A stretch of 64,000 bases of DNA from Geobacter sp. FeAm09 (GTDB taxonomy: Bacteria; Desulfobacterota; Desulfuromonadia; Geobacterales; Pseudopelobacteraceae), in assembly GCF_008330225.1 (NCBI RefSeq), contig NZ_CP042466.1, forward strand, positions 434,001 through 498,000. Direction: 5' to 3'. Below, piece by piece: positions 9,932-58,603 of the stretch (its first letter is position 1; every line of letters starts with the position of its first letter). Below the pieces are notes generated by a model. The model did no database searches. It worked only from the letters and a program-made list of their open reading frames with translations, and was not told where the DNA came from. Both the position numbers and the translations under genes were made by a program.

Positions 9932-10942
9932 TTATTCGGTTCCTGACCGGAACCGTTCCCGGTACTGACCGGGGGTGATCCTGAAGAAGCGTACAAAAGC
10001 CACCCTGAAGTGTTCTCCAGACTGAAAACCGCACTCCCGGGCGATGGTTCCCAGTGCCTGGTTCGTTTCTTCAAGGCGCTTGACCGCTGCTTCAAGGCGA
10101 ACCCGTTCGATAAAATGGGCCGGCGTCGTGCCGGTCTCCCGCTTGAAGATGCGGGCGAAATTGCGCAGGCTCATGGAAGCGTGGTCGGCCAGCGCTTCAT
10201 TGCTCAGGTGGCGCCGATAATTGTCGCGTATCCACTGCATGGTCGGAGCAAGGGAGCCTTCTTCGTGAAATTGGGCCAAAAGGCCGGTGCTGAATTGGGA
10301 CTGCCCCCCGGGCCGTTTGAAATACAACACCATCAACCGGGCAACATTCAGCGCCAGCGCGCGGCCGAAATCCTCCTCCAGCAGCGCCAGCGCCAGGTCT
10401 ATTCCCGCCGTTACCCCAGCCGAGGTATAGACGGAGCCGTCCTTGATATGGATGGCATCCTCATGGACGTCAATATGCGGATAGAGGCGGCGAAGCCGTT
10501 CGACGCTGGCCCAATGGGTGGCCGCCCGTCGTCCTTCCAGCAGCCCTGCCCGCGCAAGAATGAAGCTGCCGGTGCATATCGACCCGACCCGCCGCGCCAG
10601 GGGCGCCGTCCGGCGCAGGCAGTTCACCAGCTCTTCCGGCGCTTGTTCCGCTGCCGGACCGCCGGCCACCAGCAGCGTATCCGCTCCGGAACGGTCTGGC
10701 CAGGACGTATCGGCCAAAAGCCTGATGCCGGACGACGTCACCACAACGGCGTCTTTTGCCGCCGCCGCAATTTCGACCCGATAGAGTGGTCCCTCGCCGC
10801 CATTTCCCCGGTGTACGGCGTTGGCAAGGGCAAAAACTTCCAGCGGACCGGTTATGTCCAGGATCTCGGCGCCGTCGTAAGCGGCCATCGTTACGAGCAG
10901 TGGCGTGTCCATGGCGGTGGATGTGCGGGGCTGATGTTTCAT
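9932..10942 (-). CDS. GlxA-type transcriptional regulator (DJ-1/PfpI + AraC HTH)
   Basis: 336 residues. The N-terminal two thirds form a DJ-1/PfpI-like sensor domain (LDITGPLEVFALANAV, DTLLVAGGPAAEQAP, VGSICTGSFILARAGLL, VYTSAGVTAGIDLALALLEE). The last 110 residues are an AraC-type double helix-turn-helix (HASMSLRNFARIFKRETG and ARECGFQSGEHFRVAFVRFF). It probably regulates the adjacent exported PfpI gene, which shares its sensor fold. The first ATG is used; an internal Met at residue 11 is an alternative start. Confidence 0.9.
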   Translation of the reverse strand: MKHQPRTSTAMDTPLLVTMAAYDGAEILDITGPLEVFALANAVHRGNGGEGPLYRVEIAAAAKDAVVVTSSGIRLLADTSWPDRSGADTLLVAGGPAAEQAPEELVNCLRRTAPLARRVGSICTGSFILARAGLLEGRRAATHWASVERLRRLYPHIDVHEDAIHIKDGSVYTSAGVTAGIDLALALLEEDFGRALALNVARLMVLYFKRPGGQSQFSTGLLAQFHEEGSLAPTMQWIRDNYRRHLSNEALADHASMSLRNFARIFKRETGTTPAHFIERVRLEAAVKRLEETNQALGTIARECGFQSGEHFRVAFVRFFRITPGQYRERFRSGTE

Positions 10943-10979
10943 GGCCCCACCTTAGCCCAGGAAGCTGTCTGGCACAATG

Positions 10980-11086
10980 ACAATAAACAGTGAATTTCGG
11001 CCAAATGGGGGCCGTTTATTGTATCCTTGGTGGTCAAAACTCGGTAAGGCCGCCCCGGATAATTTTTTTGTGTCAAAGTGACACAA
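10980..11086. promoter_or_regulatory. Palindromes in the GlxA/island intergenic region
   Basis: The 427 bp between the GlxA-type gene and the SIMPL gene carry no gene. Two inverted repeats stand out: ACAATAAAC (10980-10988) with GTTTATTGT (11014-11022), enclosing GGCC/GGCC, and TTGTGTCA-AAG-TGACACAA (11068-11086). Both look like regulator binding sites or hairpins close to the GlxA start. From about 11090 the base composition becomes AT-rich, marking the island edge. Confidence 0.45.
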
Positions 11087-11218
11087 ACGACGGCGCCCGA
11101 ACAGGTTTCAAGCGCAGTTTCATGCGTAAAAACAGGGTGATAGATGATAGTTGAGTTTGTGTTAAATTTATTAACATGCTGAAATTGCGTTGAAATGTGC
11201 GTTTTCATGGAGTAGAAG

Positions 11219-11344
11219 GGACAAATAAAGAGACAGAGGGCAAATTGTGATAAATGAGGATAGATGCCAAGACTCAGCTTGGGTGATAGCCGACAACTGT
11301 TTATCACCTGATCAAAAGTGTAATTGCTGCCTGTCCTTTTATTG
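11219..11344 (+). repeat. Structured ~125-bp element, copy 1 (candidate ncRNA or MITE)
   Basis: Starts GGACAAATAA and ends near CCTTTTATTG, 25 bp before the SIMPL start codon. It shares a 30-base identical block (11242-11271) with copy 2 at 12136. Outer arms GACAG (11231-11235)/CTGTC and GCAAATT/AATTGC pair imperfectly. An inner stem GGTGATA (11282-11288)/TATCACC (11302-11308) is perfect, with loop GCCGAC. CCAAG/CTTGG may form a further hairpin. The outer arms differ in sequence from copy 2 but still pair, which suggests selection on structure. Confidence 0.6.
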
Positions 11345-11369
11345 CGCTTAAATAAGAAGGAGAAATCAT

Positions 11370-12134
11370 ATGGATACAGCATCGAATAAGTTTCTGGCTG
11401 TCGGGATTTTTCTGGGTGTTGTAATTGGCTCATTTATTTTTGGGCACTCGGTGCAAGAGGCGAGAAAGGGAGAACGCTACGTCACCGTTAAAGGAGTTTC
11501 TGAACGCGACGTAAAAGCTGATTTGGCCGTATGGCCAATAAAAATAAGCGTTGCGGGAAACAATCTTGCTGATTCAAGCCAAACACTGGAATTAACAAGA
11601 AATAAGGTAGCGCAATTCTTGAAAAAGAACGGATTTACCGATGAGGAGATATCCAATGAGGATTTAAGAGTAACGGATCGGCAGGCGGGCCAATTTTCAC
11701 AAAAGAACATTAATGAAATGTTGCGTTATGTTTTAGATGCAACGGTGCTTCTTCGCTCCAATAAGATTGACAAGGTTTCACAGGTGAGCAAGATGACTGA
11801 TGAGCTTGTGAAAGCCGGTGTAGTCCTTTCTTCTAAGAACGACTGGCAAGGGATAGGCCCCAAGTACATATTTTCCAAATTGAATGAGATAAAACCGGCA
11901 ATGATGGCTGAAGCGACAAAGAGTGCGCGTGCAGCAGCAACACAATTTGCGCAAGACAGTGGAAGTAAGGTTGGTTCAATCCGAAGAGCGAGTCAAGGAC
12001 TGTTTTCAATCTCCGATAGAGATCAACCTTCTCAGGTCCAAAATGAAGGTGGAGAAGGTAATTATTCAGGAATCTCTGACCCTAACAAGCGTGTTAGGGT
12101 GGTTGTTACAGTTGACTATTTCTTAGACAAATAG
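11370..12134 (+). CDS. SIMPL-domain (DUF541) protein
   Basis: 254 residues. A short N-terminus with one hydrophobic segment (FLAVGIFLGVVIGSFIFG, signal or anchor) is followed by a SIMPL/DUF541 domain: YVTVKGVSERDVKADLAVW at the start, the central LEATVLL-like YVLDATVLLRSNKIDKV, and the C-terminal KRVRVVVTVDYFLDK strand. SIMPL proteins are periplasmic or membrane-anchored with no settled biochemical role. AAGGAG precedes the ATG. Codon use is AT-rich compared with genes outside the island, which suggests horizontal transfer. It is bracketed by the two structured elements at 11219 and 12136. Confidence 0.85.
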   Translation: MDTASNKFLAVGIFLGVVIGSFIFGHSVQEARKGERYVTVKGVSERDVKADLAVWPIKISVAGNNLADSSQTLELTRNKVAQFLKKNGFTDEEISNEDLRVTDRQAGQFSQKNINEMLRYVLDATVLLRSNKIDKVSQVSKMTDELVKAGVVLSSKNDWQGIGPKYIFSKLNEIKPAMMAEATKSARAAATQFAQDSGSKVGSIRRASQGLFSISDRDQPSQVQNEGGEGNYSGISDPNKRVRVVVTVDYFLDK

Positions 12135-12135
12135 A

Positions 12136-12258
12136 GGACAAATAAGATGACGGGCACCAAATTGTGATAAATGAGGATAGATGCCAAGGTCAGTCAGGCG
12201 ATAGCCGACTTCTTCTGTCACCTGATTAAGAGAGTGATTGGTGCCTGTCTCTTCATTG
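12136..12258 (+). repeat. Structured ~125-bp element, copy 2 (candidate ncRNA or MITE)
   Basis: Starts GGACAAATAA right after the SIMPL stop codon. The outer stem is better than in copy 1: GACGGGCACCAA (12149-12160) pairs with TTGGTGCCTGTC (12238-12249) with a single G-T wobble. The identical block is at 12159-12188. An inner stem CAGGCGATA/TGTCACCTG again displays GCCGAC in its loop. It ends 72 bp before the GTG of the next island gene, in the same orientation. Confidence 0.6.
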
Positions 12259-12329
12259 TGCTCTGGGACTGAGAAGCGCCCCGGTGCAGGTCAAGGGTGC
12301 ATGTCGTTGTCAAAGTTTAAGGAGGTACA

Positions 12330-12917
12330 GTGGAACCATTGTTTGTAAGCGAAAATTTCAGATGGTATGAGGCAAGTAACGAGTTTGTGGATATTAGGGA
12401 TAAGTCTCGATACCCGGATACAGAGTTTGAAGTGAAGGTAAAAGTGTATGAGGATCGTGTGACCAATTGGTTTTTAGGATTAGCTAAACCAATGGTTAAA
12501 TATCAATCTCCTCATGACTATGTAGCCTTATCGATAGCTCTATCATACATTGAAGGAGTTGAGCAATTCCGTGAAGGAAAAAGCACTCCAAGAGTAAAAT
12601 CCGGAGCGTGGTTTACAAAAAGTGCAAAACGAATATTCCCGACGGCTGCTGAAGATGCAATCAAGCGCCTTTGGGAAGAAGCGCGATGTGGGCTGTTTCA
12701 CTGTGGGTTTACAGATGGAAAGACGTATGTTTCTCATAATCACAGTGAGGCATTGGAAATCGTCGGAGATCACTTAAACATAAATCCTCAAAAGTTTGTT
12801 GAAGCTACAATTCTAGACTTTGAAAAGTACATAATCCACTTATTTAAAAGCAAAAACGGTGACGACATTCGTCATAATTTCATAACTCACTGGGATGATC
12901 GTTGGGAAAATTCCTGA
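12330..12917 (+). CDS. Uncharacterised island protein, possible HEPN-like
   Basis: 195 residues, starting at a GTG preceded by AAGGAGG at ideal spacing. No family recognised with confidence. The sequence is soluble and helix-rich. EEARCGLFHCGFTDGKTYVSH contains an R-x4-H motif in a context like that of HEPN RNases or HEPN-like proteins (R-x4-6-H), so a HEPN fold is a reasonable guess. AT-rich codon use fits the island. The following orphan gene starts four bases after its stop, so the two are likely one operon. Confidence 0.6.
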   Translation: MEPLFVSENFRWYEASNEFVDIRDKSRYPDTEFEVKVKVYEDRVTNWFLGLAKPMVKYQSPHDYVALSIALSYIEGVEQFREGKSTPRVKSGAWFTKSAKRIFPTAAEDAIKRLWEEARCGLFHCGFTDGKTYVSHNHSEALEIVGDHLNINPQKFVEATILDFEKYIIHLFKSKNGDDIRHNFITHWDDRWENS

Positions 12918-12921
12918 GATC

Positions 12922-14459
12922 ATGACAACCAGCGCTACGACCGACCGAAAGAGCCAGACGGTCAGGATTAGAACGTTGAGTGATCATCGAATTATTTTGA
13001 AAAGTTATGTGAACATCTCAAGGTCCCCAACACACTTGCATAATTTGGAGCCTAATAGAAAAGTGAATTTACGAAAAATTACCAAAAGACAATTCGACTC
13101 CTACTGCTATTCCAGAAACCCCCTTTTAAGAATGCTTTCTATGGAAGTATCCTGGTATGAAGCGTTTGACAGAAAAATATTAGCTGTCGTTGTTTTAGAC
13201 TACACCGACAAAGATTATGGCTACGTGATCTTAGGGCGGGATGCTTCTAAGATGTTCCGCTGTATAGATATGGGAAGTGAGTTCTATAAAACTCCAGAAG
13301 ATGCAGAAAAAGCTTTGGAGTCTGTTGTTTTGAAATTCAACAACGATGGGCAGGATCTTTACCCACAGGGTGATGAAAAGCAAATTCCAAATGAAATACT
13401 GATTCCATGCGTAAAGAACCAGCAACTTCACCCTTACTTCAAGGTTTTAATAACAGAGCCCAGATTTGAGGCAGCTAAATATTTAATCAACGAGATAGCT
13501 TATAGTTATATAGACGTAGACGGTAATTACATAAAAGAATTTCAAACTAACGGATTTGATTCTCGCCTTTGGGAATTATATTTGTATGTATATTTGTACG
13601 ACACAGGAGCCTCAATTATTAGAGATTGTGTGGCTCCTGATTATCACATTTCTGTATTTGGAGAAGAGCTGTTTATTGAAGCAGTAACGGTTAATCCTAG
13701 CCAAAACAAAGAAAGGCCCGATCCTGCTCCCCCAACAACAAACGAAGAAGCGGCTATACTAATTAGAGACTACCTACCAATAAAATATGGAAGTACTCTT
13801 TACTCAAAATTGCAAAAAAATACTGGGACAAACCACATGTCACCGGAAAACCGCTTATCTTTGCCATCCACGATTTTCATATGCCAGGTTCTATGACATG
13901 GTCACGAACAGGATTGTGTGACTATCTATATGGTGTTCGAACCCGTGTGACTAAACGCGATGATGGCGAGTTTGAACCTATTATGGAAAAAATAGAGAAC
14001 CATACATGGGCGGGAAAGACTATACCATCTAATTTCTTTGCACAACCAGGCTCTGAAAATGTGAGTGCGGTATTGTTTTCCAACGCAGCAACGATAACTA
14101 AGTTTAACAGGATGGGCAAGCTTGCTGGAATTGTCAGCAAGAATGTCAAAATGATAAGATGTGGTTTCTTGTATAATCCTGATCCAAGGGCTCTATTTCC
14201 TACTCCTTTCTCCATCGATGTAGATTCTGAAAAATATGAAGAATCATGGTCTGACAGCCTCACAATGTATCACAACTCTAATGCCAAGCACCCGCTTAAT
14301 CCAAAGTTATTCCCTGATATCAGCCATATCTGGTATGACGACAGAAAAGGATTTACAGGAATAACAACCCCATATGACGTGCTATCATCCATGACCGTAA
14401 CCATATCTTCAGACGGATCAAGACCAGTGGAAGAAGAGAGACGAACCCTGGAGGGGTAG
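12922..14459 (+). CDS. Uncharacterised conserved protein, about 512 aa (one-base frameshift)
   Basis: Two frames join: the first ends in the region YGSTLYSKLQKN, the second gives KYWDKPHV then GKPLIFAIHDFHMPGSMTW and continues to 14459. The switch is at a seven-A run (13814-13820); eight As would make one 512-residue protein. No characterised domain was recognised. The motif AIHDFHMPGSM and an acidic DPAPPTTNEEAA linker look conserved. The first ATG after the upstream stop is 12922; an in-frame codon at 12895 overlaps the previous gene and is less likely. AT-rich, part of the island. The break is probably a sequencing deletion. Confidence 0.65.
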
Positions 14460-14844
14460 CAGGGTGAAGTAGGTTATTCGATTGTTTTGGATTACTCGCA
14501 ATGCTTGATAGGCCTCTACCTCCTTCTTGAGATACCACACAATCCCGTTTTTTCCTCACCGAGAAACATTCTTTTCATCTCGCCACACCTGACAATACGA
14601 TCCAACGAAGAATGGGCACAACGTCACCCTGAGGCCAATTCATTGGGCGACGGATAGGGTGCTTTTGTTTAGAACGGGTATGCTTCATAATGCCCCCCCT
14701 GGATGTCAACAGGTTTGTTAAGTCTGATTCTGCGTTTAGAACTGGTCGGGCAAAGTTCGGTGACGGTGCAACTACAAATTTCATCTTGCATTATCCATAA
14801 CTATACATGATAATTATCATATAAAAATCAGATGCGAGGTTGCC
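14460..14844 (+). promoter_or_regulatory. Intergenic region with perfect palindrome upstream of the Phd/RelE pair
   Basis: No gene is convincing in these 385 bp. The right end holds ATGATAATTATCAT (14807-14820), a perfect 14-bp palindrome 24 bp before the antitoxin ATG and overlapping an AT-rich promoter-like segment. Toxin-antitoxin operons are normally repressed by the antitoxin binding such a site. Confidence 0.55.
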
Positions 14845-15135
14845 ATGAGTGCCCTTCTTGAACGTTCGGATCAAGCTGTATCCGTCACAGATGTTTCCCG
14901 CTCGGCAAAGACGATCTTTGACCGGTTGAGCAGCGGCAAGCAGCAGAAATATGTCGTTATGCGCAACAACAGCCCCGCTGCCGTCATGCTGCCGGTCGAG
15001 ATCTACGAATCCCTCATGGATGAACTGGATGATCTGAGGATCGAACTTACGGCGCGGGAGCGACTGAACAGCTTTGACCGTTCCAGGGCCATCAGCCATG
15101 ACGAGATGATGAAACGCTTTGCCGGTAATGATTAA
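14845..15135 (+). CDS. Phd/YefM-family antitoxin
   Basis: 96 residues. The N-terminal DNA-binding fold is recognisable from SVTDVSRSAKTIFDRLSSGKQQKYVVMRNNSPAAVMLPVEIYESL, the classic Phd/YefM pattern (x-x-R-x-x-x-x-hydrophobic, then V-h-h-NN-x-P-x-A-V-h). The C-terminal half is charged and should wrap the toxin. Two bases separate it from the RelE-like gene. The palindrome at 14807 is the likely autoregulatory site. Confidence 0.88.
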   Translation: MSALLERSDQAVSVTDVSRSAKTIFDRLSSGKQQKYVVMRNNSPAAVMLPVEIYESLMDELDDLRIELTARERLNSFDRSRAISHDEMMKRFAGND

Positions 15136-15137
15136 CC

Positions 15138-15425
15138 ATGGCGTGGCAGGTAATCTATCATCATGAGGTGGCGAACGACCTCGAAGCGCTCGGACGCAGC
15201 GAAGCAAGGGCAATCCTGGGCGTAATCGAAAAGCGCATTCGGCATGGAGAGCCGGACAAAACCGGCAAGCCGCTGTCGGGCGATCTTTCGGGGTGCCGCA
15301 GGATCAGAACGGGCGACACGAGAATCGTGTACCGGGTCAATGCGGATACAATTGAGGTCCTGATTGTTGCCGTCGGGCCACGGCGAAATGATGAGGTCTA
15401 TAAAGCGGCACAAAAGAGGGTGTAG
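15138..15425 (+). CDS. RelE/ParE-superfamily toxin
   Basis: 95 residues. Compact RelE fold: WQVIYHHEVANDLEAL at the start, helix pair ARAILGVIEKRIRHGEPDKTGKPL, then LSGCRRIRTGDTRIVYRVNADTIEVLIVAVGPRRNDEVY, the typical Arg-rich strand and final V-G-x-R. RelE-type toxins cleave mRNA in the ribosome; ParE-type members poison gyrase. The Arg-rich G-D-x-R-I-V-Y-R motif favours RelE. Directly downstream of its antitoxin. Confidence 0.88.
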   Translation: MAWQVIYHHEVANDLEALGRSEARAILGVIEKRIRHGEPDKTGKPLSGDLSGCRRIRTGDTRIVYRVNADTIEVLIVAVGPRRNDEVYKAAQKRV

Positions 15426-15603
15426 CTTTCCAGTGGGCAAATCCCCCTGAATCCCGCTTTTTTAGAGGGGGGCCTGATCATCAGGGAGCGGCTGTATCCC
15501 GCCATGGGAAATATGATATGGTGCGCCCAAGCGGCAACGATGGATGACAAAGGTCATGTCTTCCCTCCGCCGGGCCGCATCCGAAGAAACGGGAAACTCC
15601 TGC

Positions 15604-16545
15604 ATGTCCGACGAAATCCCCAAGCCACCCGTGGGCCGGTTCGCTCCGTCACCCACCGGCGCTTTACATACCGGCTCCCTGGCCACCGCCGTGGCCAGCT
15701 GGCTCATGGCCAAAAGTGCGGGAGGGCGCTGGCTGCTGCGCATCGACGACCTGGACGCCCCGCGCCAGGTGCCGGGCATGGCCGACGACATCATGGAGAC
15801 CCTGGAACTCTTCGGCCTGCACTGGGACGGGGAGATTTCCCGGCAAAGTTCCAATCGCGAAGCATACCGGCACTATTTCAGCGAACTGCTTGCAACCGGC
15901 CTGGTCTATCCCTGCGGCTGCTCGCGCCGGGAGATCGCCCAGGCCGCGTCGGCGCCCCACCCGGACGACGACTGCCTGCCGTACCCCGGCACCTGCCGGA
16001 ACGGGATGCGGGAGGGGGCGACGGTGCGTTCCTGGCGCCTGCGGGTGCCGGACGAGCAGGTCTGTTTCAACGATCTGCACAGAGGGCCGGTCTGTCAGCA
16101 TCTGGGTGAGCGGTGCGGGGATTTTGCGGTGCGGCGCGGGGACGGGGAGATCGCCTACCAGTTGGCGGTGGTGGTGGACGACCACCTTACGGGGGTGACC
16201 CAGGTGGTGCGGGGCGAGGACCTGCTCCCTTCCACGCCGCGGCAGGTCTACATCCAGGGATTGCTCGGGCTTGCGCGGCCCGTCTACTGCCATATCCCCC
16301 TGGTGACCGGGCCGGGCGGGGCCAAGCTCAGCAAGCGGGATAACCTGGTTTCCCATCATCTGGGGAACTGGCGTGGCAAGGAGGGGGCGCTGCTGCTGGG
16401 GGTGCTGCGTTTTCTGGGGCAGGAGCCGCCCCATGACCTGGCCGGTGCGTCGTGCGACGAGATCCTCCACTGGGCCGCAGATTGCTTTGACCACGCCCGC
16501 CTGCCGGCCGCAGGAGGGGAGTTGATCATTTCACCGGGAAGTTGA
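15604..16545 (+). CDS. gluQ: Glutamyl-Q tRNA(Asp) synthetase
   Basis: 313 residues. This GluRS paralogue lacks the anticodon-binding domain and attaches glutamate to queuosine-34 of tRNA(Asp). Signatures: GRFAPSPTGALHTGSLATAVASWL (class I HIGH-type motif as H-T-G), RIDDLDAPRQVPGMADDI, a Zn site C-G-C...Y-P-G-T-C, VRGEDLLPSTPRQVYIQ, and KLSKRDN (KMSKS equivalent). Length fits the GluQRS family (about 300). ATG 15604 starts just before the conserved GRFAPSPTG; a longer start at 15544 is possible. Confidence 0.93.
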   Translation: MSDEIPKPPVGRFAPSPTGALHTGSLATAVASWLMAKSAGGRWLLRIDDLDAPRQVPGMADDIMETLELFGLHWDGEISRQSSNREAYRHYFSELLATGLVYPCGCSRREIAQAASAPHPDDDCLPYPGTCRNGMREGATVRSWRLRVPDEQVCFNDLHRGPVCQHLGERCGDFAVRRGDGEIAYQLAVVVDDHLTGVTQVVRGEDLLPSTPRQVYIQGLLGLARPVYCHIPLVTGPGGAKLSKRDNLVSHHLGNWRGKEGALLLGVLRFLGQEPPHDLAGASCDEILHWAADCFDHARLPAAGGELIISPGS

Positions 16546-21711: not shown

Positions 21712-21944
21712 CAGGCTGCCGGAATCCCCGCAGGGCTCCTCTCATGCGGGTTTCCCCGGCAATTCCGCTCGGCCGGGTAAAACGACGTATTTTTTTGTAG
21801 CCCTTTTATAGGCTTTTTGATATAAAGAGATGTTCGGTTCTCATGACGGCTACCCACAGGGGGTCGATCAGCCACGGGACCGGAGAGCAGGATCATATAC
21901 CGCCAGGATTCGAGAGCGAACCGGGACGGAAGGGAATACCCGAC

Positions 21945-50133: not shown

Positions 50134-51963
50134 ATGTGCGGAATTGTTGGCTATATCGGCGGGCAGGAGGCAACGCCGATCATACTGGAAGGGCTCAAGA
50201 AACTGGAATACCGTGGCTACGATTCGGCGGGCATCGCCACCCTGGCTGACGGCGAATCGGGCGTCCGGCGCAGCGAAGGCAAGCTGTCCAACCTGGAAAA
50301 ACTGTTGCGCCAGCAGCCGCTCTCCGGCGTGATCGGCATCGGCCACACCCGCTGGGCTACCCACGGCCGCCCCTCGGAGATCAACGCCCATCCCCACAAG
50401 GCAGGCCCGGTCATCGTGGTGCACAACGGCATCATCGAAAACTACCTGCCGCTCAGGGAGGCGCTCAAGCAGGCCGGCCATGTCTTCAAGAGCGAGACCG
50501 ATACCGAAGTCATCTCCCACCTGGTGGACGAAAAGCTCAAGGGGACCTCCGACTTCGTGCTGGCGGTCCGGCAGGCCCTGGCCGAACTGCGGGGCGCCTA
50601 CGCCGTGTGCATCCTCAATGAGCGCGAACCGGGCACCCTGATCGCCGCCAAGCTGGGGTCCCCCATGGTGGTCGGCCTGGGGGAAGGGGAGTTCTTCGTC
50701 GCCTCGGACATCCCCGCCATCCTGGCCCATACCCGGGAGATGGTCTTCATGGAGGACGGGGAAATGGCCGTGTTCCATGCCGGCACGGCCGCCTTCTCCA
50801 CCATCGCCGGCAGCCACCTGGACAAGAAGGCGCGGCACATCGACTGGTCGCCGCTCATGGCCGAAAAGGGGGGGTACCGGCACTTCATGCTCAAGGAGAT
50901 CCACGAACAACCCCGGGCCGTGCGCGACACCATCGCCGGGCGGCTTTTGGAGGATGAAGGGGATGTGTACCTGGAGGATCTGAAGTTCAGCGACGAACAA
51001 CTGGCGGCCGTGAAGCGGATCGTCATCGTGGCCTGCGGCACTTCCTGGCACGCCGCCCTGGTGGGCAAGTTCTACATCGAGGGGTATTGCCGCATCCCGG
51101 TGGAGATCGACATCGCCTCGGAATTCCGCTACCGCAGCCCGGTCATCGACGGCGATACGCTGGTGATGGTCATCTCCCAGTCCGGGGAAACCGCCGACAC
51201 CCTGGCGGCCCTGCGGGAGGCCAAGTCCCACGGCGCCATGAACCTGGCCATCTGCAACGTGCTGGATTCGTCCATTGCCCGGGAATCGGCCGGCGTGGTC
51301 TACACCCATGCCGGTCCCGAGATCGGGGTGGCCTCCACCAAGGCCTTCGTCACCCAGCTCACCGCCCTCTACCTGTTCACCATCCGGCTGGGGCGGGCCG
51401 TCGGCGCCATCGACGCCGCCACCGGCCGGCGCATGATCGCCTCCCTCAAGAAGGTCCCGGCCCTGCTGGAGGAAGCCCTCAAGCTCAACGCCGATACCGA
51501 GCGCATCGCCCGCAAGTACATGAACGCCCGCGACTTCCTCTACCTGGGACGGGGCAAGAACTTCCCCATTGCCCTGGAGGGAGCGCTCAAACTCAAGGAG
51601 ATCTCCTACATCCACGCCGAAGGCTATCCGGCCGGCGAGATGAAGCACGGCCCCATCGCCCTGATCGACGAGGATATGCCGGTGGTCATGCTCGTCCCGG
51701 AGAACAGCGCCTTTGAAAAGACCCTGTCCAACATGGAGGAGGTCATCGCCCGCAACGGCCGGGTGATCGCCCTGTGCAGCGAAGGCGATCATGAGGTCAA
51801 GACGCGGGCAGAGGATACCATCGAAATCCCCCGCATCGACGAGGACCTGGACCCGTTCCTGCTCTCGGTGCCGTTGCAGCTTTTGGCGTATCACATCGCC
51901 GTGTTGAAGGGGACCGACGTGGACCAGCCGAGGAATTTGGCAAAATCCGTTACTGTGGAGTAG
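50134..51963 (+). CDS. glmS: Glutamine-fructose-6-phosphate aminotransferase GlmS
   Basis: 609 residues. Makes glucosamine 6-phosphate for peptidoglycan and LPS. N-terminal glutaminase: Cys2 in [38 protein letters not shown]. Two SIS domains follow: [31 protein letters not shown], and the C-terminal KSVTVE tail. GGAGGAATC precedes the ATG. A strong terminator follows. Confidence 0.98.
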
Positions 51964-52040
51964 GGAGAGGATTTTGGTGGTGATTGATGAATTTGAAAAA
52001 TAATGCTGGCTACTAATAAATAGCGTCGGCTACTGCATTG

Positions 52041-52078
52041 AAAACTGAAGGGGTCTCACTTGAGGCCCCTTCAGTTTT
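52041..52078 (+). terminator. Strong intrinsic terminator downstream of glmS
   Basis: AAAACTGAAGGGG (52041-52053) pairs perfectly with CCCCTTCAGTTTT (52066-52078), with A and T tracts for use in both directions. Confidence 0.92.
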
Positions 52079-52428
52079 CGCGAAACGCGGAACGGGCTGT
52101 TGAATTTCCCTTTCTTCAACAACGGCCTTGATCCTGATGGGTGACTGGTGCAGCAAAGGCTGGCATCGAAAAGAATGAAATAACGGCAATGGTAACGATG
52201 GCGGTAACTATCAACAAGGCCAGGAAAACCTTTTTCTAGCAGTGAGGAAGTTTGTGCCATTGACAGCAGCCCTTTAATGGGTGACTCCACATGATTTCCT
52301 CTGTGGTGAATTCGCATTCTCAACATAACCCACGTTTGCAAGGGGTAGGCCATCAATTTTCAACTGTCAGCCATCATGGCTAAAGGCCATTCGGATTTCA
52401 CGGCCTTGCAAGGATAAGGACGTTAATC
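52079..52428. other. Gap before the second island; no gene recognised
   Basis: These 350 bp hold no frame with a ribosome site or conserved sequence that I can support. Base composition drops gradually towards the AT-rich island that begins with the promoter at 52429. Confidence 0.4.
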
Positions 52429-52627
52429 TTGTTTCCTTGTCCGGATTATGATATAAATACAGCTTAGTCTTCCTAGAAACAAAAGCATCAACAAATCTCA
52501 CCATGCGACACAAGGGTGCTTTTCAAGCTTCCAAATCGGCAATTGCGTGCGGGGTTTGGCTTCGAGAGAGGGCCGCACGTGGCTCGGAAACGGGAGTGAA
52601 AAGGCGACCTCAAGCAGGTCGCTTTTA
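52429..52627 (+). promoter_or_regulatory. Promoter and structured leader RNA of the four-gene cassette
   Basis: TTGTTT (52429-52434) and TATAAA (52452-52457) are 17 bp apart, a good sigma-70-type promoter. The predicted transcript then carries a stem GTGCGG (52547-52552)/CCGCAC (52573-52578) and a terminator-like hairpin GCGACCT (52604-52610)/AGGTCGC (52616-52622) followed by TTTT. This ends only eight bases before the ATG of the first gene. It could be an attenuated leader or a small RNA reading partly through into the operon. Confidence 0.55.
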
Positions 52628-52634
52628 CATTAAA

Positions 52635-53369
52635 ATGGATGATCTAATTTACTTTCGGACACCTAATTCAAAGATATCCTATCTATCCCGAACCTTAAAA
52701 GATGGCCCAGAAAAAGATCTCGTTGAAGAATTTATTTCTATTCAGAAACAAAAACTGTCGTCAAGCTCCCGGCACGGCTATACCCTTTTCATAGAACCAA
52801 AGCTTGATGTTGGGTTTCCAGATGTTGTTATTGTAAGGTTCTCACGCTCGGTTATGGCTAAATGGTCACCATCGAGGATGCCACTTGACCTGACGTCATT
52901 GAAGATACTCAGTCACCTCTTTTATGCAGGCCCAATTTCAATAGATAAACTCAAGACTGATCTTGGCTTTGTAGACCCAGTTTTAGGTCAAAGGCTGAAC
53001 TCTCTTCAAGAAGCAAAGCTAATATACAGAAAAGGCGATTTGTATAGGGCATACTCATTCCGTGAAACATTTGCAGTCAGAGAGGTTATTGCAATTGAGG
53101 CAAAAATGTCTGATATTTTTGGCGCAATTTGTCAGGCATCAAAAAACAAATGGTTTGCAACTTCATCTTACATTTTAACTCCAAGCCTAAGACCTACCCC
53201 TAGAGTCGCTTCACGCTGCGGTGATCTTGGTATTGGAATTTACGGACTGAAGCGACTTGATTTTACTGAGATATTGAGACCACGTCCTCATGAACTGCCA
53301 AAATCATATGTAACTCTTTTGCTTAACGAATGGATTGGCAGGAAAATTTTTGATGGCTCTGGAGTTTAA
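52635..53369 (+). CDS. PD-(D/E)XK-like protein with internal winged-helix segment
   Basis: 244 residues from ATG 52635. FIEPKLDVGFPDVVIVRF gives the Asp of a PD-(D/E)XK nuclease core, and VREVIAIEAKMSDIFGAICQAS gives the E-x-K with the following helix (A-x-x-Q-A). About 90 residues separate them and read as a winged helix (LTSLKILSHLFYAGPISIDKL, then LNSLQEAKLIYRKGDLY). The catalytic residues appear intact, so it may cut nucleic acid, or it may sense DNA. The fold is an inference. First gene of a four-gene AT-rich operon; four bases before the kinase gene. Confidence 0.55.
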   Translation: MDDLIYFRTPNSKISYLSRTLKDGPEKDLVEEFISIQKQKLSSSSRHGYTLFIEPKLDVGFPDVVIVRFSRSVMAKWSPSRMPLDLTSLKILSHLFYAGPISIDKLKTDLGFVDPVLGQRLNSLQEAKLIYRKGDLYRAYSFRETFAVREVIAIEAKMSDIFGAICQASKNKWFATSSYILTPSLRPTPRVASRCGDLGIGIYGLKRLDFTEILRPRPHELPKSYVTLLLNEWIGRKIFDGSGV

Positions 53370-53372
53370 TCA

Positions 53373-54226
53373 ATGGCACTGCCCACTGAACCAGAAATCC
53401 TCGCCTCAATTCCGACTCTCAGCAACTTGACCCTCCTAAAAACCTGCGGCCAAAAAGCCGTTTACCGCGGAAATGACGATCGCTTCGGCGAGGTAGTTGT
53501 CAAAGTCATACTAAGCCAAACAGCTGATGAACGGACGAAACGCGAAATTGATGTAGCCCAGGCAAACAACATTGCATATGTCCCGAAGATACATGCGCAT
53601 GGAGAAATAAGACACTCGTCGGGAATGAATTACTACCTTATGGAGCAATACATCGATGGAGGGTCCCTTGAGGATTTCTACTTAAGTGGCCGTAAGCTGT
53701 CCTTTCCGCAGTCCATCCTTCTTCTGGAAACCTTACTAACCCTAGCTGTCGCATGTGAGAAGTTACATATCGTTCACCGCGATCTGAAGCCTGGGAATAT
53801 ACTGTTCGATTCCAAAGGTATTTTTTGGGTCATTGACTTCGGCATCGCTCGACACCTTGACCTCCCCTCCATAACTGGATCGGCAGATGCCTTTGGCCCT
53901 CACACCGCTGGATATGCCCCCCCGAACAGTTTAGGAACATCAAAGACGACGTAGACATACGAGCCGACCTCTTTTCCATTGGGGTTGTCATATATGAGGC
54001 TCTAACAGGGGGTAATCCTTTCCGTGAAGGCGCGAGGAATGCTCTGGAGGTTCTTTACCGCACTGAAAGTGTTATCCCTGTGCCTCCTACTATTCCTGAA
54101 GATACTAATGGAATGCTCGCACAGTTTGTTACTCTAATGATGAACAAGTTTATTTCTCGCAGACCAAAGACAGCTGCTGAAGCTTTAAAATGGTATAGTT
54201 CTTTTAAACAGACACTAAAAATGTGA
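53373..54226 (+). CDS. Ser/Thr protein kinase (Hanks-type, one-base frameshift)
   Basis: Two frames join into about 284 residues. The first covers the N-lobe Lys (EVVVKVI), the catalytic loop HRDLKPGNILFD, and DFGIARHLD. The second gives PPEQF then RNIKDDVDIRADLFSIGVVIYEAL, the A-P-E and helix-F region. The switch is at a seven-C run (53917-53923); eight Cs restore it. All catalytic residues are present, but the glycine loop is poor. Soluble, without sensor domain. It lies in an operon with a PP2C phosphatase, which may reverse its action. The break is likely a sequencing deletion. Confidence 0.85.
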
Positions 54227-54236
54227 GGTCTCCGAT

Positions 54237-55430
54237 ATGCAAATGCTCCTTCAGTTTGGCTACGGGATGATGACACATTGCAAAGAACTCATAAAAGAAT
54301 GGGGCAATGGAACAGTAATTTTAAGCCCTCGTGACTTAACATCTGAGCAGATGGTACAGCTATCAAAAGATCTGAAAAAGGTCGGCGGTGGTGTTTGTCT
54401 TGATCCTCAGTTTTATGATCCGAGAGCTGATCACCCTCGATTGACGGACCATGATTTTTGGCCCGAGTCTTATGAGACCAGTTCGTTTTTAGACCGGGGC
54501 ATCGATCAGCTTCTTATCGACCTCAAAAGTATAAATACCTCGACAAACACAGACTTTTATATACTCCCCGGACTGTTTTACCAATTCGGAAAGGATGAGT
54601 GGTTTATAGCGCAAGATGCGATTATTAAAAAAGGTGTGCGGGTCTTGAATGACAAAGAAACTTTCGCAACCATTGCGCTATCGTCAGATGTCGTAAGAGA
54701 TGAGTCGAAACTTGAGCAGATTCTGAGTTCTGCGGAGACGTGGCCTGTTGATGGTTACTACGTGGTGCCCGAACATCCTTCATCTCAATACTTGGTTGAG
54801 GATCCGATTTGGCTCTCTAACCTTCTCGCCTTTCTTGCTGGACTCAAGCTTCTAGAGAAAAAAGTCATTCTTGGGTATGCCAATCATCAAATGCTAGCTG
54901 CTGGCCTAGCAAATGTGGACGCTATTGCTTCGGGCACATGGCTGAATGTGAGGTCTTTCTCTGCTAAAAAATTCAGCCAAGCAGAGGAAGGGACAACTAG
55001 TCGAAGGGCGACTTGGTACTATTGCCCGCACAGCTACTCTGAATACAAAATTCCTTTTCTTGATATCGCACATCGCTCTGGCATTCTAGACCAGCTCAAG
55101 CCTATCAATGGTATGGCAAATGATTTCTGCTCGCCCCTTTTTACAGGAGCCATACCTTCTTCCGTTGCATATACTGAATCTAAATCCTTCAGGCATTATC
55201 TGGACACCCTACGCAAGCAATCTTTGACCGCTAAACTTGCATCTTTTGATGACACTGTGAATGCGTATAATATGAGACTGGACAGTGCCAGTGACTTCAT
55301 TTCCACCTTCCATCGTCATGGTGTCCGTGGGCAGGACAGGGATTTCGCACCCTTTATAGACATCAATCGTGCCGCAATTAGCCAGCTCATTAGGTCTCGT
55401 GGTTTAGCCCTCTCAATGTCCTGGAACTAG
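54237..55430 (+). CDS. Uncharacterised conserved protein of the kinase/PP2C cassette
   Basis: 397 residues, no family recognised. Alternating strand/helix pattern with motifs that look conserved: QFGYGMMTHCKELI, TVILSPRDLTSEQM, GGGVCLDPQFYDPRADHPRL, WPVDGYYVVPEHPSSQYLVED, VILGYANHQMLAAGL and AIASGTWLNVRSF. The repeated beta-strand/loop layout would fit a TIM-barrel, possibly a transglycosylase or hydrolase, but I cannot name the reaction. No TM or signal peptide. Third gene of the operon, ten bases after the kinase. Confidence 0.7.
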   Translation: MQMLLQFGYGMMTHCKELIKEWGNGTVILSPRDLTSEQMVQLSKDLKKVGGGVCLDPQFYDPRADHPRLTDHDFWPESYETSSFLDRGIDQLLIDLKSINTSTNTDFYILPGLFYQFGKDEWFIAQDAIIKKGVRVLNDKETFATIALSSDVVRDESKLEQILSSAETWPVDGYYVVPEHPSSQYLVEDPIWLSNLLAFLAGLKLLEKKVILGYANHQMLAAGLANVDAIASGTWLNVRSFSAKKFSQAEEGTTSRRATWYYCPHSYSEYKIPFLDIAHRSGILDQLKPINGMANDFCSPLFTGAIPSSVAYTESKSFRHYLDTLRKQSLTAKLASFDDTVNAYNMRLDSASDFISTFHRHGVRGQDRDFAPFIDINRAAISQLIRSRGLALSMSWN

Positions 55431-55431
55431 T

Positions 55432-56151
55432 ATGTTTTTCTTTGCTACGGATATTGGTAGAAGGCGCAGCAATAATCAGGACGCCGTTTTAATAAGTGAA
55501 GATGATAAGGTTGTGGTGTTAGCTGATGGAATGGGCGGCCATAGTTGTGGTGAGATAGCAAGCAATTTGGCCGCTGATGTTGCATTTTCCTCCATCTGCA
55601 ACGAATTGTCAAAACTACGCCATTCGGCTAATGACAGGGTCTTTGAGGTCCTATTAAATGCCGGTGACAATGCCAACAATGCTGTTATAACACACTCCAG
55701 TGCTTTTCCTGAGTGTTCACAAATGGGGACAACTCTGGTTGAAGCCATAATAATCAAAAACAAGTTATACCTTTACAACATTGGAGACTCTAAGTGTTTC
55801 TTGCTTCGTGGTAGTTTGATGCAGCTCACTGAAGATCATACTATCGCCAACATGCTCAAAAGACACGGGACTTCACCGCTTAACATACCGTCAAATGCCC
55901 ATCATGCTCTAACCCAAGCCATTGGGCTGAACGAGACTCTTTTCCCGGCAACAAATATAATTTCGTTAAGAAAAAATGATCTTTTGCTGTTCTGTACTGA
56001 CGGCCTAACAGACGCGCTGAACAACCGTGAACTCACAAACATACTTCTTCTCCCAATAACTATACAGGAAAAAGGTCATCTGCTAATTGAAAAGGCAAAT
56101 GCCGCAGGTGGGCATGATAATATCACCTTAGTGATCTATCACCATGGTTAG
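55432..56151 (+). CDS. PP2C-family Ser/Thr protein phosphatase
   Basis: 239 residues. PP2C motifs in order: TDIGRRRSNNQDAVLI (N-x-D), VVLADGMGGHSCGEIAS (D-G-M-G-G), GTTLVEAIIIKNKLYLYNIGDSKCFLL, LTEDHT, LLFCTDGLTDALNN and GGHDNITLVI. Metal ligands all present. Starts one base after the previous stop, so it is the last gene of the cassette. Its presence beside a Hanks kinase suggests a reversible phosphorylation switch. Confidence 0.93.
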   Translation: MFFFATDIGRRRSNNQDAVLISEDDKVVVLADGMGGHSCGEIASNLAADVAFSSICNELSKLRHSANDRVFEVLLNAGDNANNAVITHSSAFPECSQMGTTLVEAIIIKNKLYLYNIGDSKCFLLRGSLMQLTEDHTIANMLKRHGTSPLNIPSNAHHALTQAIGLNETLFPATNIISLRKNDLLLFCTDGLTDALNNRELTNILLLPITIQEKGHLLIEKANAAGGHDNITLVIYHHG

Positions 56152-56247
56152 ACGTATTTGGGGAAAAGAGGAGGGGCAGGCCGGCGACTCGCTACACATC
56201 CCCGTCATTTTAGCCTCTCCTGTCACGATAACGCAATGGAAACCTTC

Positions 56248-56328
56248 GGGGTCAACTTTGACACTTGAACATTTGACCGGTGTTGACGATAAAATCGACT
56301 TGAATGTTTAAATGTCAAAGTTGACCCC
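56248..56328. mobile_element. IS-end-like or MITE inverted repeat at the island edge
   Basis: GGGGTCAACTTTGACA (56248-56263) and TGTCAAAGTTGACCCC (56313-56328) are perfect 16-bp inverted repeats 49 bp apart. TGTCAAAGTTGACCCC-type ends are common for IS elements and their MITEs. Base composition changes from AT-rich to normal here, so it may mark the end of the transferred segment. No transposase gene is present. Confidence 0.6.
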
Positions 56329-56421
56329 CTTCGCGCCCTTTCCCTGCCAAGACGCCATGCCGCGTAGCGGCTTCGGCATGAGCCGAAAAAAGTGAAAAAA
56401 TAGTTTGAACAAACAGCGTAT

Positions 56422-56445
56422 GTGATATATCATTGGTATATATCA
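56422..56445 (+). promoter_or_regulatory. vapBC operator-like inverted repeat
   Basis: TGATATA (56422-56428) and TATATCA (56439-56445) flank TCATTGG/TAT-rich sequence just before vapB, matching an antitoxin autoregulation site that overlaps a promoter. Confidence 0.5.
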
Positions 56446-56455
56446 AGGGGGCTTT

Positions 56456-56686
56456 ATGAATAGAGTCGCTAAAATATTCCAAAACGGCCGGAGCCAGGCA
56501 GTACGCCTCCCAGCAGAATTCCGTTTTTCCACTCATGAGGTCTTTATCGAACGCCAGGGGGACGCCATCGTACTCAGGCCCAAGCCCGAGAGTTGGGACG
56601 ACTTTTTTGCCCGGCCGTCCAAGGTACCGGCTGACTTTCTTGCCGACCGGAAAGACGTGCCGCCTGAAGCAAGAGAGCTGTTTTGA
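56456..56686 (+). CDS. vapB: VapB-type antitoxin (AbrB/SpoVT family)
   Basis: 76 residues. VAKIFQNGRSQAVRLPAEFRF is the swapped-hairpin AbrB DNA-binding motif of VapB proteins, followed by EVFIERQGDAIVLRPKP. The C-terminus binds the toxin. Its TGA overlaps the vapC ATG (TGATG). Confidence 0.92.
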   Translation: MNRVAKIFQNGRSQAVRLPAEFRFSTHEVFIERQGDAIVLRPKPESWDDFFARPSKVPADFLADRKDVPPEARELF

Positions 56687-57084
56687 TGCGGTATATGCTC
56701 GATACCAACATATGCAGCTACATCCTCAAGAGCCATCCTGCGGCGGTCAGGCAGAAGTTTGAAGAGGTCGGCCCCGAAAACATCTGTATATCCTCAATCG
56801 TCCTCGCCGAGCTGTACTACGGCGCGGTCCGGCACCCAAAGGGCGTTGTTATCCGCCACGAGATTGACGATTTCGCGGCCAGGTTGATCGTGTTGCCGTG
56901 GGATGAAGCGGCTGCCGATCACTATGGGGCGATCCGGGTGTCTCTGGAGAAGGCTGGTACCCTCGTAGGAGCGATGGATATGCTGATAGCGGCGCACGCC
57001 AAAAGCTGCGGCGCCACACTGGTGTCCAACAACCTGCGGGAATTCGACCGGATCAAAAGCCTGGAAACGGCTAATTGGGCATAA
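56686..57084 (+). CDS. vapC: VapC-type PIN-domain toxin
   Basis: 132 residues from ATG 56686, overlapping the vapB stop. PIN-domain acidic residues are visible: MLDTNICSYIL (first Asp), ISSIVLAELYYGAVRH (Glu), GAMDMLIAAHAKS (third Asp), and SNNLREFDRI. VapC toxins are Mg-dependent RNases that cut tRNA or rRNA. Forms a module with VapB upstream. Confidence 0.92.
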   Translation: MRYMLDTNICSYILKSHPAAVRQKFEEVGPENICISSIVLAELYYGAVRHPKGVVIRHEIDDFAARLIVLPWDEAAADHYGAIRVSLEKAGTLVGAMDMLIAAHAKSCGATLVSNNLREFDRIKSLETANWA

Positions 57085-57232
57085 CGAGATGCAACCTGCC
57101 TGAAATCAAGTTCTCTCGTGAAATGGGTCGCGCATGTTTGCGGCCCATTTTATTGGCCTTCTCCCCAAAGAACAGACCGGTTCTCGCGGAGAACGTCATG
57201 ACTACATTTACAGATGAGGTGGCGGTAACAGG

Positions 57233-58603
57233 ATGAAAAAGGAAAAGAGCCGTTCGGTGATCATCGCCCGCCAGGAACATGGGGTCTCCCGCAAACTCAT
57301 GAGCCCGAACGCCCTGCGCACCCTCTACCGCTTGAGAGATAACGGCTTTTTCGGCTATCTCGTCGGCGGCTGTGTGCGTGACCTCCTGCTCGGCCGGGAA
57401 CCAAAGGATTTCGACGTGGTAACCAACGCCACCCCGTCCGAGGTGAAGCGGTTGTTCCGCAACTGTCGCCTTGTCGGGCGGCGTTTTCGCCTTGCGCACA
57501 TCCATTTTCAGGATGAGGTCATCGAGGTGGCGACCTTTCGGTCCCAGGTTTCGAACGAGCCGGAGTCCGAGCCGAAAGAGGCAAGCGGGTCGGAGCGCCG
57601 GCAGCGGCCCCCGCGGATGCTGAAGGACGACGATGGCATGATCCTGCGCGACAACGTTTACGGCACCCCTGAAGAGGATGCCCTGCGCCGTGACTTCACC
57701 ATTAATTCGCTTTCCTACAATATCGCCGATTTCTCGATCATTGACTACGCTGGAGGCCTCGCCGACCTCAACGCCGGCATCGTCCGCACCATCGGCGATC
57801 CCGCTGTCCGCTTCCAGGAAGACCCGGTACGAATGCTGCGGGCGGTGCGGTTTGCCGCCCAACTCGCTTTCACCATCGAGGAACATACCCTGAAGGCGCT
57901 GGTTGCCGCCACTGATACCATTGTCAGGGCTGCACCGCCGCGCCTCTACGACGAGGTGCTCAAGCTCTTCCTCTCGGGGGCGGGAGCAACGTGTTACGGA
58001 CTCCTCCGCCAGACCGGGCTTTTTGCTGCGCTTTTCCCTTGTTTCTCGAACTGGCTCAACGCCGAAAGCGAAGGCTTTCCCCACGCCCGGTTCGGGGAAA
58101 TGCTCTGCCAGGTCGATTCCCGTATCCAGCAGGGGGGCATGGTCTCCCCGCCGCTCCTCCTGGCACTTCTTTTTGGTGAGTACATTGACGGGAAGGCAGC
58201 GCATTTCCGCCGACAGGGTGTGCCCTGGCAGCAGAGCGTCAACGCGGCGGTTGCGGAGTTCATGGGCGAAACCTGCCCGATCGTTATGATCACGAACCGC
58301 GTCGGACTGGCGCTCCGCGACATCATCAGCCAGCAGATGCGCCTGAAAAAGATCCCCGGTCGCCGGCCGGAGTCGTTCATCGCCCGTCACGATTTCAATG
58401 ACATCGTCGATTATTGCCGGGCAACATGCGGCGGCACAAGGGATGTCGTCAAACAGCTCGACTGGTGGGCGGCCCGGGCAATGCAGCAGGCGTCGGTGTC
58501 TCTTCCTTCCAGGCTCACCGAAGAAGCCGGGGCGCCGCAACGAAAGAGGAGGAAACGCCGCCGGCGGAATCCGCAGGTGAAAAACCGGACGGAAGGGGTA
58601 TAA
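57233..58603 (+). CDS. pcnB: Poly(A) polymerase PcnB
   Basis: 456 residues. Class II nucleotidyltransferase: GYLVGGCVRDLLLGREPKDFDVVTNATPSEV (G-G-x-V-R-D and D-x-D), RRDFTINSLSYNI, and DPVRMLRAVRFAAQL. The N-terminal MKKEKSRSVIIARQEHGVSRK and basic C-terminal tail (PQRKRRKRRRRNPQVKN) fit PcnB rather than CCA-adding enzymes. Polyadenylates RNAs for decay. Normal length. Confidence 0.9.
   Translation: MKKEKSRSVIIARQEHGVSRKLMSPNALRTLYRLRDNGFFGYLVGGCVRDLLLGREPKDFDVVTNATPSEVKRLFRNCRLVGRRFRLAHIHFQDEVIEVATFRSQVSNEPESEPKEASGSERRQRPPRMLKDDDGMILRDNVYGTPEEDALRRDFTINSLSYNIADFSIIDYAGGLADLNAGIVRTIGDPAVRFQEDPVRMLRAVRFAAQLAFTIEEHTLKALVAATDTIVRAAPPRLYDEVLKLFLSGAGATCYGLLRQTGLFAALFPCFSNWLNAESEGFPHARFGEMLCQVDSRIQQGGMVSPPLLLALLFGEYIDGKAAHFRRQGVPWQQSVNAAVAEFMGETCPIVMITNRVGLALRDIISQQMRLKKIPGRRPESFIARHDFNDIVDYCRATCGGTRDVVKQLDWWAARAMQQASVSLPSRLTEEAGAPQRKRRKRRRRNPQVKNRTEGV

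Follow-up and report, generated by a model that had tools for sequence, protein, structure and literature searches.

Within the 64,000-nucleotide stretch of Geobacter sp. FeAm09 analyzed here (contig NZ_CP042466.1, positions 434,001 to 498,000; hereafter the window, to which positions refer unless another locus is named), four co-directional genes, which we call A, K, T and P, occupy 52635-56151. They are separated by gaps of 3, 10 and 1 bp: A ends at 53369 and K starts at 53373, the second frame of K ends at 54226 and T starts at 54237, and T ends at 55430 and P starts at 55432. Their GC contents (A 0.40, K 0.47, T 0.45, P 0.43) lie below those of the flanking genes (0.64 for 50134-51963 and 0.61 for 57233-58603), in agreement with the gene positions, the tight spacing and the AT-rich character in GC-rich surroundings given by an initial annotation of this DNA. 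The features of the locus are as follows.

52635-53369, plus strand: A, PD-(D/E)XK nuclease-like protein of 244 aa with a winged helix inserted at about residues 85-140 (AlphaFold2 fold, Foldseek, residue conservation)
53373-53954, plus strand: first part of K, Ser/Thr kinase N-lobe with the HRD and DFG motifs (Pfam Pkinase, conserved residues, translation)
53917-53923, plus strand: homopolymer of seven C (C7), site of the kinase frame break (translations, C runs in relatives)
53918-54226, plus strand: second part of K, activation segment and C-lobe in another frame (Pfam Pkinase, translation)
54237-55430, plus strand: T, 397 aa, predicted TIM barrel of the tRNA-guanine transglycosylase (TGT) fold with a D56/Y60 pocket motif (AlphaFold2, Foldseek, VIA, conservation)
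55432-56151, plus strand: P, PP2C-type phosphatase, optional accessory (NCBIfam, Pfam, neighborhood counts)
51976-57211, no strand: insertion relative to the sister genome G115 (blastn)

Used as a single query, T matched nothing in genome contigs, viral contigs or phages; a four-row T alignment found 60 loci in genomes and 4 in viral contigs, which together with five further loci make up the 69 relative loci considered below (cited by number, as in L012). Each of the first six T relatives had K and an A-like gene adjoining, the A genes of Natribaculum and of L012 being recognized only with later profiles. With near-copies counted (L030 with L032-L034, L047 with L053, L077 with L079), 60 loci run A+K+T+, five K+T+A-, two hold K and T, and two T only, and A, K and T are all present in 65 of the 69. 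In three of the four loci without A (L017, L025, L069) the contig ends at K or T; in the fourth, L068, our models found no A over 7.1 kb of upstream and 0.9 kb of downstream sequence, a search that a broken A could escape. The median gap between K and T is 0 bp, and on a Kocuria rosea plasmid the two are fused into one 675-aa protein. Moreover, the pairwise identities of T correlate with those of K (rho 0.80) and with those of A (rho 0.77) over 58 rows, from which near-copies, broken rows and loci lacking A or K were left out, and none of 300 permutations gave values as high. We regard it as nearly certain that the A-K-T block is a real unit.

The phosphatase does not belong to this core. A PP2C gene adjoins A-K-T in only 3 of the 69 relative loci, that is, in 4 of 70 with the window (one-sequence profile, E<=1e-4, over the sequence covered around each locus), which rules it out as a core member; it is convergent with the cassette in L041, L045 and L078 and co-directional in the window. 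The PP2C family itself is confirmed by Pfam (PP2C_2, 1.6e-12), and P also matches NCBIfam Stp1_PP2C (3.2e-59, 200 bits against a cut-off of 230) and PADLOC PDC-M21C (2.1e-10). The initial annotation had described a four-gene cassette and had held that rare co-occurrence of its genes would speak against one: nearly all relatives carry A, K and T together, and the phosphatase is indeed rare beside them. The unit is hence retained with a core of three genes, and the PP2C is an optional accessory of it.

The description of A as a PD-(D/E)XK-like protein with a winged helix is supported by its predicted fold and conserved residues, and not by Pfam, which gave sub-threshold winged-helix matches only (E 0.08 and 0.12); PADLOC likewise returned only weak winged-helix matches for the window protein (E 0.016 and above). 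The AlphaFold2 model (predicted local distance difference test, pLDDT, 94.9) matched 3dnx (7.4e-4) and 1xmx (5.7e-3) best in Foldseek over its core, followed by ArsR/MarR winged helices over the insert, which is also the part that the VIA matches of A mainly probe. In the modeled alpha-beta core, E26, D63, E155-x-K157 and Q167 form a putative catalytic set of the E, D, ExK, Q type that characterizes PD-(D/E)XK nucleases. E155, K157 and Q167 are invariant (66 of 66 rows), and E26 is kept in 64 rows and D63 in 63; the rows that deviate are L023, whose A is broken, L035 and L014. A separate alignment of A, A6, comprises the window and 49 of the A rows. A lacks the winged helix on the Polaromonas plasmid and in L012, which leaves the nuclease core as the part that does not vary. 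The winged helix matches Zalpha domains (4lb5, Z 10.8, root-mean-square deviation (rmsd) 0.9 over 55 residues) as well as it does MarR/ArsR. A by-eye comparison showed no agreement with Zalpha contact residues, and a Z-DNA role was provisionally set aside.

The assignment of K to the kinases holds in Pfam (Pkinase 1.5e-15 for the first part of the gene), and its relatives carry the residues of a kinase active site. K44, E58, H135, D137, N142, D155, G157 and E194 are each present in 67 of 68 K rows, the window row being read across the frame break, so that the Ser/Thr kinase set (VAIK Lys, alpha-C Glu, HRD, DFG and APE Glu) is complete at the same count; most rows also have a glycine loop of the form G-Q-K-x-V. 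PADLOC matches K with PD-T4-6 kinases at 2e-21, and the mad6 kinases of MADS are similar too. The kinase ORF of the relatives is mostly 273-314 aa long and in most of them unbroken; the length exceptions are L075 (split, 201 + 80), L052 (137), L017 (202, at a contig end), L064 (391) and the Kocuria fusion, and K was not seen in L025 and L069, where T lies at the contig end. The window copy was initially taken for one open frame, which it is not: frame 1 ends after 193 aa at the stop 53952-53954, and the remainder of the kinase domain, up to 54226, is read in another frame (Pkinase 2.8e-5, 24.1 bits, under the cut-off of 31.7), with the change of frame at the C7 run, 53917-53923. The longest C runs in the kinase ORFs of 67 relative loci measure 3 to 5. 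Because K is frameshifted, the kinase/phosphatase switch proposed by the initial annotation is not intact in this strain. Probably the module is inactive here, unless one base of the C7 run is an assembly error or the run is recoded.

Given this break, seen in the translations, we lean towards regarding this particular copy as a decaying remnant that has lost its kinase C-lobe to the frameshift, a reading that concerns the window alone and is compatible with any of the explanations discussed below. Of 16 sister-genome ORFs matching the window, 15 do so in one frame, the sixteenth being an antisense ORF across two genes, so that frame errors are not widespread in the stretch; poor sequence quality in general as the cause of the frameshift thus finds no support in this small sample. 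Decay is, however, at odds with the open frames of A, T and P; a single homopolymer base may be an assembly error, and the run C-CCC-CCC-G would permit a -1 slip.

T, initially an uncharacterized 397-aa enzyme, can now be given a predicted fold. Its AlphaFold2 model (pLDDT 94.0; predicted template modeling score, pTM, 0.93) has TGTs as its top three Foldseek matches (9.2e-5 to 1.1e-4), and all 50 chains shown by VIA are TGT chains (Z 19.1-20.4, rmsd 3.4-4.1, 294-319 residues aligned), which points to a (beta/alpha)8 barrel of the TGT type. D56, P111 and G233 are present in 58 of 58 rows, and Q6, G8, T145, Y175, G213, N237, R239 and H320 in 57 each; seven of these 11 residues sit just after a strand, on the active face of the barrel. 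Y60 is found in 55 of the 58 rows (F in 3), and the motif D56-x-x-x-Y60 stands at the end of strand 3 with the same spacing as Asp102 and Tyr106 of TGT, as matched by strand order. In the parts of PMC6165067 available to us, Asp280 of TGT (the residue number is that of Z. mobilis) is described as the nucleophile, Asp102 as acting in the second step and Tyr106 as stacking the base. Position 231 of T, the equivalent of Asp280 by strand order, is A in 47 rows, C in 8 and T, S or V in one each, and none of the 58 rows has an acidic residue at 230-233, where the nucleophile would be expected. Nor did reading of the window protein and of the consensus of 52 rows reveal a CxCxxC zinc motif. Because the nucleophile is missing, T would not carry out TGT exchange; judging from strand order and spacing, it is probably a TGT-like fold with a probable base pocket and without TGT chemistry.

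No family is assigned to the window T by Pfam, PADLOC or NCBIfam, nor to any of 52 rows by Pfam and PADLOC; these rows form alignment A5, which consists of the window and 51 of 64 loci, the near-copies L032, L033, L034, L053 and L079, the split L044, the partial L069 and L074, L066 (GTG start), and also L051, L054, L057 and L071 being left out. A search of its own genome with Pfam TGT (PF01702) matched two other genes and not T, and the best match of the T profile to the sequences of solved structures was chance-like (E 0.34). Comparison with viral predicted structures gave weak barrel matches, 2 of the 50 shown being named queuine tRNA-ribosyltransferase (E 2.1e-3 and 9.5e-3); these were not used as evidence.

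The genomic context of the unit points to defence. In L016, L018 and L044, whose titles read Deltaproteobacteria, Actinomycetota and Planctomycetia, the genes stand in the order PglXI-A-K-T-BrxHII-PglZ on one strand, that is, inside an operon of the bacteriophage exclusion (BREX) type. These calls were made with the PADLOC models PglXI, 'BrxHI|BrxHII' and PglZ, except that PglZ in L018 was recognized from its 53% identity to the L016 protein; we use the type 3 label because PglXI occurs with that helicase, whose PADLOC description itself reads BrxHI. The T proteins of these loci are among the closest found to the window T (49-51% identity). Across the 70 loci searched, relatives of the L016 PglXI, BrxHII and PglZ proteins turned up at these three alone, and the window genome has no match to PglZ. 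Elsewhere, HmaC adjoins the cassette in L050, and a cluster of HsdR-like/helicase proteins occurs in four loci (L012, L015, L043, L045), the L015 member being annotated only as a DEAD/DEAH helicase. The neighbor scan took in at most two genes on each side at 62 loci (204 of 207 proteins, three PP2Cs being left out, as were the near-copies L032, L033, L034, L053 and L079). Among the 95 of the 204 neighbors that were searched with Pfam, two matched HSDR_N. At E<=1e-10, PADLOC returned 101 families from 95 neighbors and 217 from the other 109, against 6 from 108 control ORFs in ten fixed stretches of the window genome, a contrast that is only indicative because families rather than proteins were counted and some control ORFs are spurious, which flatters it. 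Two relatives have very large proteins upstream of the cassette: one of 1671 aa with a helicase C domain (L030, 1054-6066) and one of 1359 aa with no Pfam match at E<=1e-5 (L079, 1559-5635). Collectively, the BREX, HmaC, HsdR-like and PADLOC associations make a role of the cassette in defence quite likely. The defence or signaling island suggested initially accordingly remains a likely reading for the A-K-T core, through co-occurrence and the BREX and HsdR-like/Hma neighbors, and not for the PP2C.

The cassette is mobile. Of 141 genomes from the order, the window genome alone has T, which was found in 6 of 395 genomes sampled from the phylum, the window genome included; class-level searches around G277 and G463 matched these centers alone (1 of 23 and 1 of 42). 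A T tree of 49 rows carries 18 phylum labels, archaea included, and requires 25 label changes, against a least possible 17 and a mean of 33.1 after shuffling, with none of 200 shuffles as low; the labels are taken from the titles that submitters gave, and metagenome bins account for many of the rows. The rows are somewhat clustered by phylum, yet mixed. Copies lie on plasmids of Natribaculum (an archaeon), Polaromonas and Kocuria and on viral contigs, with a baseplate protein nearby in L078, and cassette GC is under flank GC in 60 of 68 loci (L010, a repeat of L073, being counted). On viral contigs, DNA methyltransferases were also observed near the cassette (L076, 4392-5288; L078, 8391-9320, minus strand).

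At the site itself, about 170 bp separate the two flanking genes in the sister genome G115, in place of 51976-57211 in the window. A second sister, G114, shares the sequence right of about 56240, including a VapBC pair, and has a SIR2-like gene on the left in place of the cassette (L086, 145-1590, minus strand; Pfam SIR2_2, 9.1e-26), adjoining the same VapBC. Genes of this kind thus seem to come and go at the site, a candidate defence turnover site. The VapBC toxin-antitoxin pair lies directly right of the cassette at 56456-57084 (NCBIfam VapB 2.7e-27, VapC 2.4e-42). Near the start of the G114 homology, at 56240-56330, there is an inverted repeat with GGGGTCAACTTTGACA-type arms, possibly a small mobile element or a terminator at the boundary. 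Farther away, the window contains a second low-GC stretch at about 10001-16000 (GC 0.40-0.53 against about 0.63 around it) and an Rfam pan motif at 21844-21933 (plus strand; 38.8 bits, gathering score 36.2).

Several known systems resemble the cassette in part. One of them is type 3 BREX, where A-K-T sits co-directionally between PglXI and BrxHII in the three loci named above; the window locus, whose genome has no PglZ match, is itself not a BREX locus. The BREX survey, in the parts available to us, lists PD-(D/E)XK nucleases as auxiliary effectors and does not describe the trio (PMC12839542). A PD-(D/E)XK nuclease is coupled to a Ser/Thr kinase, as in A and K, in type 2 BREX PglW and in some DndF proteins (NERD nuclease with S/T/Y kinases), according to the accessible portions of PMC12839542 and PMC10853773, whereas in the cassette nuclease and kinase are encoded separately, the nuclease has a winged helix inserted into it, and a protein of predicted TGT fold accompanies the two. 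T resembles TGT, DpdA and QTRT2 in its predicted barrel fold, and the D-x-x-x-Y at the end of its strand 3 may correspond to that of TGT; QTRT2 is a TGT relative in which Glu replaces the catalytic Asp (PMC6165067, same parts). T has no acidic residue at the expected nucleophile position, no CxCxxC and no detectable relation at the level of sequence. Among the 25 families shown for each neighbor set there was no DpdA, DpdB or DpdC of the Dpd system, preQ0 genes not being specifically searched. As in qatABCD and type IV CBASS (cyclic oligonucleotide-based antiphage signaling system), where QueC-family proteins act, an enzyme fold of the 7-deazaguanine pathway would be reused in immunity; QueC, however, is another enzyme of that pathway, and the available text of PMC13279940 describes no nuclease-kinase-barrel trio. 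The kinases of PD-T4-6 and MADS (mad6) are similar to K, and PDC-M21C is similar to P (2.1e-10), while PADLOC matches the window A only weakly, through its winged helix, and the window T not at all. Among the titles and abstract openings returned by searches of open-licence PubMed Central text, none describes an A-K-T trio.

Taken together, we propose, with a probability of roughly 0.5, that A-K-T is a self-contained, horizontally moving three-gene module directed against invaders, in which T senses, K relays and A cuts. T would be a TGT-derived receptor for a purine-like or deazaguanine-like base, nucleoside or modified nucleic acid, and T with its ligand bound would switch K. K would then phosphorylate A or a host target, and A, guided by its winged helix, would cut DNA, either that of the invader or, abortively, that of the host; the PP2C, where present, may reset the switch. 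A direct step between K and T is supported by the K-T fusion; the direction of the signal, the ligand and the target are parts of the proposal that we infer. A number of observations weigh against this model. The predicted fold is the sole source of the TGT link: TIM barrels are common (976 of 1000 VIA chains reach Z>=8), non-TGT barrels follow closely behind the TGTs in Foldseek, and the equivalences of D56 with Asp102 and of position 231 with Asp280 are drawn from strand order. PF01702 is absent among the five families matched by the 52 T rows at E<=0.1, and profile-profile comparison of T with TGT (hhalign) gave a probability of 0.1 on a scale of 0-100; since this comparison gave no match, we do not claim that T belongs to the TGT family. 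The window copy of K is frameshifted. The co-varying identities could also stem from shared organism history. As to defence, an adjoining defence gene was identified in only a minority of loci, some neighbors are plainly unrelated to it (an AcrB-type pump in L028, a glycosyltransferase in L068), the PADLOC contrast is no more than indicative, and the three BREX loci all come from metagenome bins, one of them, L044, carrying T and PglXI in fragments.

The most conserved residues at the C-terminal strand ends (D56, P111 and G233 in 58 of 58 rows; G8, G213, N237 and R239 in 57) line the mouth of the barrel as they do in enzymes, and T might therefore be an active enzyme with new chemistry, excising or inserting a base without the Asp280 route and so marking host DNA or tRNA, with A restricting unmarked DNA and K/PP2C setting the timing, in a Dpd-like modification-restriction system. 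TGT homologs do mark DNA in Dpd (DpdA), and a TGT is reported in BRC systems, according to the available parts of PMC12839542. Nevertheless, we consider this unlikely: the nucleophile position is non-acidic in all 58 rows, DpdA, DpdB and DpdC are missing among the families shown for the neighbor sets (25 of 101 and 25 of 217), and the DpdE matches seen are the BrxHII helicases. The complete catalytic set of K and its PADLOC match to the PD-T4-6 kinases would equally suit a kinase toxin acting abortively on a host target in the manner of HipA or PD-T4-6, controlled by A and T through DNA or a ligand. The frameshifted K of this strain fits such toxicity, and kinase-dependent defence has been reported for DS-6 (PMC13092281, as far as its accessible text goes). 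Yet the catalytic residues of A are equally conserved (E155, K157, Q167), which would be needless in a mere regulator, and this possibility appears quite unlikely to us.

It is also conceivable that the cassette is an ordinary stress-signaling operon with no defence role, brought near defence genes by shared mobile islands. Mobile genes do gather in islands, many of the neighbors searched with Pfam are unrelated to defence, and, besides A, K and T, no neighbor family recurs in more than four loci. Same-order placement inside a type 3 BREX operon, at three loci labeled as three phyla, and the nuclease-type core argue against such an operon, which we hold to be improbable. Our proposal of a sensing, relaying and cutting module can, on the other hand, be carried further, and tentatively, with less confidence than we place in the module itself, we speculate that the trio constitutes an immune system in its own right, so far undescribed and present in both bacteria and archaea. 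In it, a TGT deprived of its nucleophile would sense a nucleobase linked to phage, or a modified nucleic acid, and would drive a kinase, which in turn licenses the A nuclease; type 3 BREX would have adopted the trio as a built-in second effector arm.

T, a protein unnamed by the Pfam, PADLOC and NCBIfam models, gains a predicted fold and a probable pocket from this analysis. If the proposal is true, A-K-T would be a widespread and as yet unnamed immune module of prokaryotes, joining the TGT fold of the queuosine pathway, phospho-signaling and a restriction-type nuclease in one unit, and BREX operons would carry it as a portable extra effector cassette.

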